Shown: positions 60,456 through 61,949 of the stretch, piece after piece
How positions within the stretch are numbered: position 1 is the stretch's first letter
Layout: each line of letters starts with the position of its first letter
NCBI GenBank assembly: GCA_030280995.1
Contig: JASXTE010000002.1
Coordinates: forward strand, 16,684,683 to 16,748,682
Direction: 5' to 3'
DNA: 64,000 bases
Origin: Hemileia vastatrix
Taxonomy: Eukaryota; Basidiomycota; Pucciniomycetes; Pucciniales; Zaghouaniaceae
Notes under the pieces: model-generated
Databases searched by the model: none
The model's input: only the letters and a program-made list of their open reading frames with translations
Told to the model about the DNA's origin: nothing
Program-made: the position numbers and the translations under genes

Positions 60456-61188
60456 TCTCTCCACGGCCTATCATCATGAAACCAATGGGCAAACGTAAAT
60501 GGTCAACCAAATCCTTGAACAATACCTTCGAATGTATGTAAGTTACCAACAAGATGATTGGACCACATGGTTACCATTGGCCAAATTAGCTTATAACAAC
60601 TCGACTCATTCTTTGACACGACAATCTCCTTTCAAAGCTGTTTATGGAAGACATCCTTAATTCAACTCAATCCATGTAGGAACTAATCATCCTGCGGAAC
60701 ATTATCTTCAAACCATATCACGACTTCAAGAAGAACTTAAATCAAATTTGGAATTAGCGACTCAAAGGTACAAGGAAAAGGCCAACAAAAATTGACAATC
60801 TGCTCCTCCATTTATACCAGGCGACAAAGTATGGCTCGACAAACAAAACATTCGAACAACTGGACCATCAAAGAAACTAGCCAAAAGGCGTTTGGGACCA
60901 TTCGAAATTGACTCCAAAGTTTCTAAAACTGCATTTTTACTCAAGCTACCTCCTAAATGGCAGGCTATTCACCCTGTTTTTCATGTATCTCTCCTGGAAC
61001 TGGCTCAAGAAATGTACCCGGGCAGGAACCAAACTCCTACCGGTACCACTTCCCCAATCTCCAGCAATTCTTCAGCCACGTCAAAGGAGGCAGCATTGAT
61101 AATCTTGTCGAAATGGCCACTTAACTCTTCAATGAACCTAGTTCGTCAACCCTGGCGAGGTTTCTTTGACCATACCTGGTCATGAGTT
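60456..61188 (+). pseudogene. Gypsy-1 pol, third piece (integrase end and chromodomain-like tail)
   Basis: It resumes in integrase with LSTAYHHETNGQT and then a stop where the catalytic Glu is normally found, followed by LEQYLRMYVSYQQDDWTTWLPLAK and NNSTHSLTRQSPFKAVYGRHP. The C-terminal part has PFIPGDKVWLDKQNI, RRLGPFEIDSKVS and HPVFHVSLLELAQE. The tail includes SKEAALI and NLVRQPWRGFFDHTWS, which resembles the end of a chromodomain (LVRWxG..xxTWxP). The last 140 bp overlap the antisense gene on the other strand. Confidence 0.82.
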
Positions 61189-61949
61189 TCTTCATTGTCC
61201 TCCCTCGAGGCAATCACTTTTAAATTTTCTTCAGCGGGGATCAAAGGCGCTGCTTCCACAAAGGCCACTTCCACAGTAGTGGTTTCCACAAGAGGAGCTC
61301 CCACACTAGAGGCTTCCACCATAGGGGCTTCTGAAATGACATCTGATTTCTAAAACATATGGTCATCAGTAGAAATTTTCTTTTGAAAAAATAAAATAAA
61401 ATAAAATAAAATAAAAGGCAAAATTACTTTGAACACCGGATCAGCCTCTAGAAATAAGTTCGATGTGCCTTCCACTGCCACTTCCTTTTCTTCATTGTCA
61501 TCTTTGATGACCATCTGCTGCTTCTTCGGTGTCCGCCTCGAGATGGGGACTTCCTCCTCTTCTTCCACCCCTCATTTTTTGCCCGTGGCTTGGGTTACCC
61601 AGGTCGCCACGGTATCCTCAACTTCCTCGTCAACTCCTTCCGACTGATCGTCCCCAACCAACACATCCCATATATCTTTGACCACTTCTTTGGTCTTTGG
61701 TATTGCCCAGTATTTATTTTTGGTAAACCGTTTCTCAATGTCGGCCTTCTTTGAGAGGGCATTGCACGTCACCCGTCTCCATCGGCAAAACTCGCATTTC
61801 TGGAGAGGACCCCATGTGGCCGTGCTTTTGACACAGAAGTATTCCATCGACTCACAAGCCGTGCAGGCTTGGGAATACTGTTGGGTAATGAGCCCACCGT
61901 CCGCTTTAGGGTGAGGAGGCGTGGGAGTTGGAGTAGGGCAAGTTGACAT
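61146..61949 (-). pseudogene. Antisense Zn2Cys6-type gene of Gypsy-1 (two exons)
   Basis: Exon 1 runs from ATG at 61949 to 61428 (174 codons). The intron (61350-61427, 78 bp) has donor GTAATT, a CTACTGATG branch-point-like motif and acceptor TTTTAG. Exon 2 runs 61349 to 61146 (67 codons plus TGA). The protein has a CPTPTPTPPHPKADGG start, six cysteines spaced CX2CX6CX12CX2CX6C, RRVTCNAL, IPKTKEVVKDIWDV, an acidic run, and a Val/Glu-rich tail with THDQVWSKKPRQ. The start lies 101 bp from the 3' LTR, whose antisense promoter activity could drive it. A TGA at 61572-61574 (codon 126) breaks this copy where copy B has Arg. A sequence-specific DNA-binding regulator is the natural inference. Confidence 0.72.

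Follow-up and report, generated by a model that had tools for sequence, protein, structure and literature searches.

A predicted intron-bearing antisense gene beside the 3' long terminal repeat of an abundant Ty3/gypsy chromovirus in the rust fungus Hemileia vastatrix

The 64,000-nucleotide stretch of the Hemileia vastatrix genome analyzed here (the window; contig JASXTE010000002.1, positions 16,684,683 to 16,748,682) carries two decayed copies, A and B, of a predicted accessory gene that lies antisense beside the 3' long terminal repeat (LTR) of an abundant Ty3/gypsy chromovirus. Comparison of these copies with others from the same genome leaves little doubt that they derive from a genuine antisense gene that is under selection and has a spliced structure. 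The fuller reading, in which this intron-split gene is under protein constraint and encodes a nuclear zinc-binding regulator of the element, is in our judgement about as likely to be right as wrong. The gene also appears to have a history separate from most of gag-pol and shared with the LTR.

Structure of the gene among genomic copies

The genome searched was the 747.6-Mb assembly. Three queries with the antisense exon gave 6172, 6179 and 6860 first-look candidates, and the best 150 of each were scored. Forty-two copies were aligned: 20 type A loci (10 kb each, the best matches to copy A), 20 type B loci of 1.3 kb each that matched copy B, and both copies from the window. Codon counts for exon 1 use 40 of these, two copies with an out-of-frame exon 1 being excluded, and those for exon 2 use the 32 copies with a recognizable C-terminal motif. 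Ratios of nonsynonymous to synonymous substitution rates (dN/dS) were calculated by the Nei-Gojobori method.

The original prediction, made from the window alone, described a minus-strand ATG, an exon with cysteines spaced CX2CX6CX12CX2CX6C, a phase-0 intron and a second exon. This layout was reproduced exactly in copies A and B, as was the single nonsense codon of each copy at a different site (codon 126 in A, codon 45 in B). In the larger sample the exon 1 antisense frame is fully open in 30 of 40 copies, beyond what chance would give; four other frames are open in none of the 40 and one sense frame in eight.

Other family copies, which the original prediction proposed to search for the open antisense frame, keep both the frame and the intron. 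The GTAAG donor is present in 38 of the 42 copies, GT in 41 and AG in 39, and 38 copies have both GT and AG. All 42 contain a branch-like motif, either ACTGATGA or a close variant of it (two such variants occur), and in 40 it is located 19 to 22 nt before the intron end. Around these signals the intron varies from 54 to 95 nt, and its interior sequence is also variable. In 30 of the 42 copies the intron length cannot be divided by three, yet the exon 2 frame is conserved, which requires splicing. Seventeen of 42 copies combine a start ATG and GT-AG with an exon 1 free of stops and 105 or more open codons in exon 2, some of them stopping in or just past a region modeled as a helix. Copy A deviates in its donor, GTAATT, and is without the true 3' end of the gene, about 1.16 kb of a relative being absent from it at 61034-61047.

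The gene had been predicted to end at a homologous TGA in exon 2 (61148-61146 in copy A, 722-720 in copy B). This end was rejected. Among 38 copies read, the codon at that position is CGA in 15, CAA in 11, TGA in nine and another codon in three, and conserved coding sequence extends about 60-70 codons past it. The spread of CGA, CAA and TGA is consistent with a methylated CpG decaying on one strand or the other. Several copies of both types have in common a further stop after KMK(R/K)LV, and the antisense protein may have a length of about 290 or about 300-320 amino acids. At one locus, L055, an internal deletion has removed the intron and the acidic middle of the protein, leaving exon 1 fused in frame with the C-terminal portion of exon 2.

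Selection on the antisense frame

Separate dN/dS values for the sense and antisense frames, as the original prediction suggested, place the strongest constraint in the antisense frame. For exon 1, dN/dS between types A and B is 0.086 in that frame, from 399 pairs with a nearly saturated dS of 2.1. Four control frames range from 1.07 to 2.63, and the sense frame with the same third positions has 0.21. All 19 type A copies have this sense frame closed, and 8 of 21 type B copies have it open. For exon 2 the antisense-frame value between types is 0.147, against control values of 0.99-2.17, except for 0.27 in the sense frame sharing third positions. Within types, the exon 1 values are 0.17 (A-A) and 0.14 (B-B).

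The uncorrected ratio of nonsynonymous to synonymous differences (pN/pS) is 0.21-0.23 in the most diverged pairs and 0.51 in the closest, as expected if recent changes represent decay after insertion. A codon bootstrap of three A/B pairs gave 95% ranges for dN/dS of about 0.055-0.14, with saturated replicates excluded (251, 730 and 284 of 1000) and with one pair's own dS saturated. Fixed changes numbered 21 nonsynonymous and 17 synonymous, and private changes 120 and 37, respectively (Fisher p 0.014), which is the expected direction with few fixed sites.

The carrier element and presence of the gene

Pfam families found in type A and type B elements combined were gag, protease, reverse transcriptase, RNase H, integrase, SH3_Tf2-1 and chromodomain. 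The order of these domains, and LTRs with 5-bp target duplications, identify the carrier as a Ty3/gypsy chromovirus; identical 5-bp flanks were present in 7 of 12 elements examined. The LTRs are about 0.8 kb long and 92-96.5% identical within elements in which both were found. The pol stop follows the chromodomain, and beyond it lie a very AT-rich spacer of about 0.9 kb, the convergent antisense gene, about 100 bp and the LTR. The overlap with pol that had been predicted does not hold, since pol ends about 0.9 kb before the gene in the elements read. The two adjoin in copy A only, because of its deletion of about 1.16 kb.

Presence of the gene was assessed with the chromodomain as the query, since this query is blind to the antisense gene. 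All 10 chromodomain-matched loci have the antisense gene on the opposite strand, two of them with deletions in it; these loci were the best 10 of 150 listed, including the query's own element, and are not a random sample. At most of them the extracted stretch reached no further than exon 2 and the final part of exon 1. Together with the constraint in both subfamilies, this result upholds the prediction that the element encodes an antisense gene next to its 3' LTR and that the intron structure of this gene is conserved.

The pol frame is at least 1189 amino acids long at 14 of the 150 listed chromodomain places, and therefore the family has probably moved recently. When these 14 places were matched by hand to the best 150 exon 1 matches listed, eight had antisense exon 1 at the expected place, free of stops in six. 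The other six were unmatched among those best 150 similarity-ranked matches, which is not evidence of absence; one of them, L058, has part of the antisense gene with the stop after KMKRLV. In comparisons of type A elements with one type B element, dN/dS is 0.075 in exon 1 (15 pairs) and 0.205 in pol (16 pairs).

A likely promoter outside the LTR

Of 43 available copies, with one locus represented in two lengths, 29 were examined upstream of the antisense start position. In 28 of these a TATA box is present on the antisense strand at a distance of 82-103 nt, and the 29th copy has a different sequence at that place. Immediately upstream of the box comes a conserved inverted repeat, of which the terminus of the LTR itself is part, and the window copies are 82-87% alike over the first 189 bp of the LTR. 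The conserved TATA box is likely to be an element of an antisense promoter. Transcription from the 3' LTR, as stated in the original prediction, is at best half right. The gene does start beside the 3' LTR (in copy A the LTR begins with TGTCAC at 62051, 102 bp from the antisense start codon), but the likely TATA box is about 10 bp outside it. Thus, a solo LTR or a 5' LTR would not supply the TATA box.

Separate history of the 3' cassette

When one type A element was compared with one type B element, windows in gag-pol were 85-95% identical and windows in the antisense gene 59-82%. Likewise, dS between types amounts to 2.2 over 15 pairs in exon 1 and to 0.23 over 16 pairs in pol, and the divergence from type B rises stepwise at the pol stop. 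Among type A elements, pol has a dN/dS of 0.50 at a dS of 0.12, which is near decay, and exon 1 has 0.17 at a dS of 0.61.

Distances in windows along the element were also correlated with exon 1 distances, by Spearman coefficients over 13 of the 20 type A elements, with pairs that are not independent. The coefficients were 0.37-0.72 for the part with exon 2 and the intron and for adjoining sequence, 0.52-0.69 for the 5' LTR and 0.31-0.55 for the 3' LTR. They were 0.26-0.27 for the pol-side spacer and -0.18 to 0.29 for most gag-pol windows, the exceptions being two gag windows (0.43-0.45) and the last pol window (0.49). By these measures the antisense gene appears to be inherited jointly with the LTR and apart from most of gag-pol. 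Recombination that swapped gag-pol between lineages with different 3' cassettes would be the simplest explanation, and a faster rate of change within the cassette is a possible one.

Because the history changes so abruptly at the pol stop, the 3' cassette, rather than gag-pol, may be what sets the lineages apart. A speculative extension, which we regard as improbable, is that the antisense six-cysteine gene and the LTR form swappable self-control cassettes, old and strongly diverged, on a common gag-pol, with each protein acting on its own LTR. If so, the cassettes would be comparable to a phage repressor with its operators, and elements could recognize their kin and evade regulators or host silencing tuned to other cassettes.

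The predicted protein

The six-cysteine spacing is intact in 35 of 42 copies. Seven cysteine columns (the six and one more N-terminal) are 95-100% conserved, and the other columns average 83% with a median of 95%. Since 49% of the non-cysteine columns also reach 95%, the conservation of the cysteines is suggestive and not proof. The middle of the protein is acidic, with a conserved KK-containing basic stretch that may be a nuclear signal. The structural model of exon 2 has a mean predicted local distance difference test score (pLDDT) of 55 and includes a C-terminal helix at residues 86-116 of exon 2, in blocks with mean pLDDT of 71-83. Pfam searches with exon 2 gave weak, scattered matches to unrelated families, the best with an E value of 0.016.

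Proposed function and alternatives

That the protein is a nuclear regulator of the element is a proposal to which we give about an even chance. In this mechanism, RNA polymerase II would initiate at the conserved TATA box on the antisense strand next to the 3' LTR, the conserved first 190 bp of the LTR would supply promoter elements further upstream, and the antisense transcript would be spliced and would end in the AT-rich spacer. The intron could be retained through retrotransposition because it is antisense to the genomic RNA and would be invisible to the splicing of that RNA. The six cysteines would bind zinc, a basic PKKRR-like stretch would give entry to the nucleus and the C-terminal helix would mediate pairing of the protein. 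The protein would then act on the element's own LTR through activation, damping or relief of silencing.

Several points weigh against this proposal, or against the constrained gene on which it is built. First, the 42 copies were picked by protein similarity, several of them for open frames, so that counts of open copies are biased upward. The start codon is altered in 4 of the 20 type A loci, and exon 2 is open in the antisense frame in 12 of 32 copies, compared with 0-7 of 32 in the other frames, two sense frames having 7 and 6. Secondly, dS between types A and B is saturated, which makes the exon 1 figure of 0.086 soft. The test of fixed against private changes is also weak. Codon positions show no departure from evenness in either class (p 0.38 and 0.22), and fixed changes are not enriched at third positions.

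Third, searches with the protein gave little help. The Zn2Cys6-type protein of the original prediction fits in its cysteine spacing and conservation and falls short in its profile: 15 of 29 members match PF00172 (Zn_clus) at E values up to 10, the best at 0.55, and member 1 scores 7.2 bits against a curated cut-off of 21 bits. Structure prediction, which had been put forward as a check, gave an AlphaFold2 model of exon 1 with a pLDDT of 31. The basic residues are located in the second half of the cysteine cluster; in Gal4-type proteins they are in the first half. A fold search with the exon 2 model found no match at an E value of 0.001, and sequence searches of solved structures (PDB) found matches at chance level only. 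Among 5.8 billion proteins, within a search that reached predicted proteins of suitable length sharing short words, there was no homologue at an E value of 0.001 (57 candidates) and none at an E value of 1 with a 29-sequence alignment (7991 scored), and thus no function can be transferred. A control search with the integrase found rust proteins (best named match Puccinia sorghi at 63%; most of 120 listed, of 438, from Austropuccinia psidii, mostly at 44-67%), which makes the absence of antisense-protein homologues informative, though limited. Lastly, the TATA box is a consensus match only, and the agreement between LTR and gene is partly expected from linkage.

The alternative that survives best, which we consider possible although doubtful, is that the protein is real and is not a regulator of transcription, serving instead as a nucleic-acid chaperone, as a partner that helps bring the pre-integration complex into the nucleus or as an anti-silencing factor directed at the machinery of the host. 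The proposed DNA-binding domain is without profile or fold support, as this alternative would allow, and passages of PMC7264820 raise the possibility that antisense proteins act in nuclear import and that sense ENV-like proteins act as chaperones. The inheritance of the gene together with the LTR favors a partner in the LTR over a partner in the particle, although mere closeness would give the same pattern.

We attach only a very small probability to a functional antisense RNA, acting as double-stranded RNA or by interference with the genomic RNA, in which the reading frame would be incidental. Non-coding antisense transcripts are known in other elements, according to passages of PMC7264820, and a likely antisense promoter is conserved here. 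Such an RNA would not explain an antisense-frame dN/dS of 0.09-0.15 against more than 0.98 in four of five control frames, nor splice signals that are conserved around a variable intron not divisible by three in most copies.

An equally slight chance is given to a captured host gene that is carried as a passenger in some copies and is now decaying. Capture of a genomic stretch would be a simpler explanation of the intron, and many copies have stops. However, the gene was present at all 10 loci sampled through pol, two subfamilies combine saturated dS with low dN/dS, and exon 1 is open beside long open pol frames in six of eight matched places. Capture as a recent event is largely refuted by these results; an ancient capture is possible and would be compatible with a regulator of the element.

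A chance open frame or a mirror of pol coding, to which the abutment on pol in copy A and the low value (0.21) of a third-position-sharing sense frame open in some type B copies might point, was rejected by the frame controls and is extremely improbable, since the abutment is a deletion, pol ends well short of the gene in the elements read, that sense frame is closed throughout type A and the other four control frames exceed 1 in exon 1.

Features of the window

Coordinates are given in Table 1. The carrier of copy A is a single LTR element (34485-63123) interrupted by two nested LTR elements. Its LTRs are only about 87-91% alike, which indicates that copy A is old, and matching 5-bp flanks are not present. 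Nested element 1 has no open reading frame of at least 120 amino acids in the 2.6 kb between its pol and 3' LTR. The antisense protein gave only chance-level matches to the two nested elements, although a split gene of another kind is possible there.

Table 1. Features of copies A and B and of the element that carries copy A, in window coordinates
Feature	Positions	Strand	Details
Copy B exon 2	537..860	-	Runs to stop after ...KMKRLV
Copy B predicted intron	861..923	-	63 nt; GTAAGT...TACTGATGA...TTTAG; branch-like TACTGAT
Copy B exon 1	924..1472	-	549 nt; ATG at 1472; nonsense codon 45
TATAAG beside copy B	1569..1574	-	102 nt upstream of ATG
3' LTR of copy B	1585..2354	+	
5' LTR of copy A's element	34485..35293	+	
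Nested LTR element 1 in copy A's element	37750..50131	-	2.6-kb gap between pol and 3' LTR
Nested LTR element 2 in copy A's element	51759..60450	-	pol end adjoins own LTR; no room for antisense gene
End of pol, copy A's element	60448..61047	+	SH3_Tf2-1 and start of following stretch; joined to antisense gene by deletion
Copy A exon 2	61034..61349	-	Phase-0 join; 3' end cut by deletion at 61034
Copy A predicted intron	61350..61427	-	78 nt; GTAATT...TACTGATGA...TTTTAG
Copy A exon 1	61428..61949	-	522 nt; ATG at 61949; CX2CX6CX12CX2CX6C; nonsense codon 126
TATAAA beside copy A	62035..62040	-	91 nt upstream of ATG; about 10 bp outside LTR
3' LTR of copy A	62051..63123	+	TGTCAC...GTGACA; 263-bp insert at 62509-62771

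The 263-bp sequence inside the 3' LTR of copy A recurs at 5580-5842 with 93% identity. Within nested element 1, a 150-bp repeat is present three times at 45195-45644 in the pol-side frame and gives protein repeats of 50 residues. Pieces of 7438-8977 are 75-82% identical to 40081-41993, which assigns 7438-8977 to the family of nested element 1. On the minus strand at 21465-27417 is a very recent insertion, a Ty1/copia element whose two LTRs, each of 888 bp, show 100% identity and whose single open frame of 1384 amino acids encodes gag, integrase and RVT_2 domains.

Comparison with known systems

The predicted protein shares its cysteine spacing, CX2CX6CX12CX2CX6C, with the fungal Zn2Cys6 transcription factors of PF00172. 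It differs from them in not reaching the profile cut-off, in the position of its basic residues and in being encoded by a transposon.

Human T-cell leukemia virus types 1 and 2 (HTLV-1 and HTLV-2) have the spliced antisense genes HBZ and APH-2, respectively, which are expressed from the 3' LTR side and whose proteins modulate the LTR, as described in passages of PMC3185765. The present gene resembles them in lying antisense on the 3' LTR side, its transcription and splicing being predicted. HBZ begins within the LTR and its protein contains a bZIP domain, whereas here the ATG and the likely TATA box are outside the LTR, and no bZIP family was among the Pfam families listed for exon 1 or exon 2.

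PMC7264820 reviews plant genes that lie in antisense between pol and the 3' LTR, and these aORF-3R genes include maize Grande gene23, RIRE2, PvRetro13 and the TRP28 open reading frames of Retand (PMC7264820, PMC11963269). Grande gene23 is equipped with a promoter of its own and its product is nuclear, a regulatory role has been proposed (PMC7264820, PMC11963269), and DNA binding has been predicted for the antisense TRP28 frames of Retand (PMC11963269). The Hemileia gene shares two features of this class: it lies opposite to gag-pol between pol and the 3' LTR, and in the loci sampled it is present in most copies and conserved like the element's other proteins. The TATA box predicted from sequence consensus in 28 of 29 copies may mark a promoter of its own. 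It differs from the plant genes, as these sources describe them, in one conserved predicted intron and a six-cysteine cluster, and Retand elements are non-chromoviruses. TRP28 (PF04195) is absent from the Pfam families listed for exon 1 or exon 2.

The closest fungal counterpart is brtn, the antisense gene of Boty/BcGypsy1 in Botrytis cinerea (Zhao et al. 2011, as cited in PMC7264820, PMC8365987 and PMC4227169), which is also mentioned in PMC5987419. The statement in the original prediction that no such gene was known for fungal gypsy elements is contradicted by this gene, which is already in print. Both carriers are fungal Ty3/gypsy elements with a chromodomain in pol and an extra antisense gene between pol and the 3' LTR. 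The hosts differ, Botrytis for brtn and a rust here, and the passages of those papers that describe brtn, by which it was compared, mention neither an intron nor a six-cysteine cluster. The literature located gave no further case of such an antisense gene beyond brtn and the plant genes, and no description of one with an intron and a six-cysteine cluster.

Antisense accessory genes as such have been described before, from plants and from at least one fungal family. What appears to be new here is a gene that is by prediction intron-bearing, that encodes six spaced cysteines and that is inherited as a cassette linked to the LTR. It suggests a route by which a retroelement gene may keep a spliceosomal intron, namely by lying antisense to the RNA that is reverse transcribed. 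The 6172-6860 first-look candidates in one genome provide a large natural sample in which protein constraint, splicing signals and a likely promoter can be measured, and the break in history at the pol stop makes the idea of an LTR partner testable.
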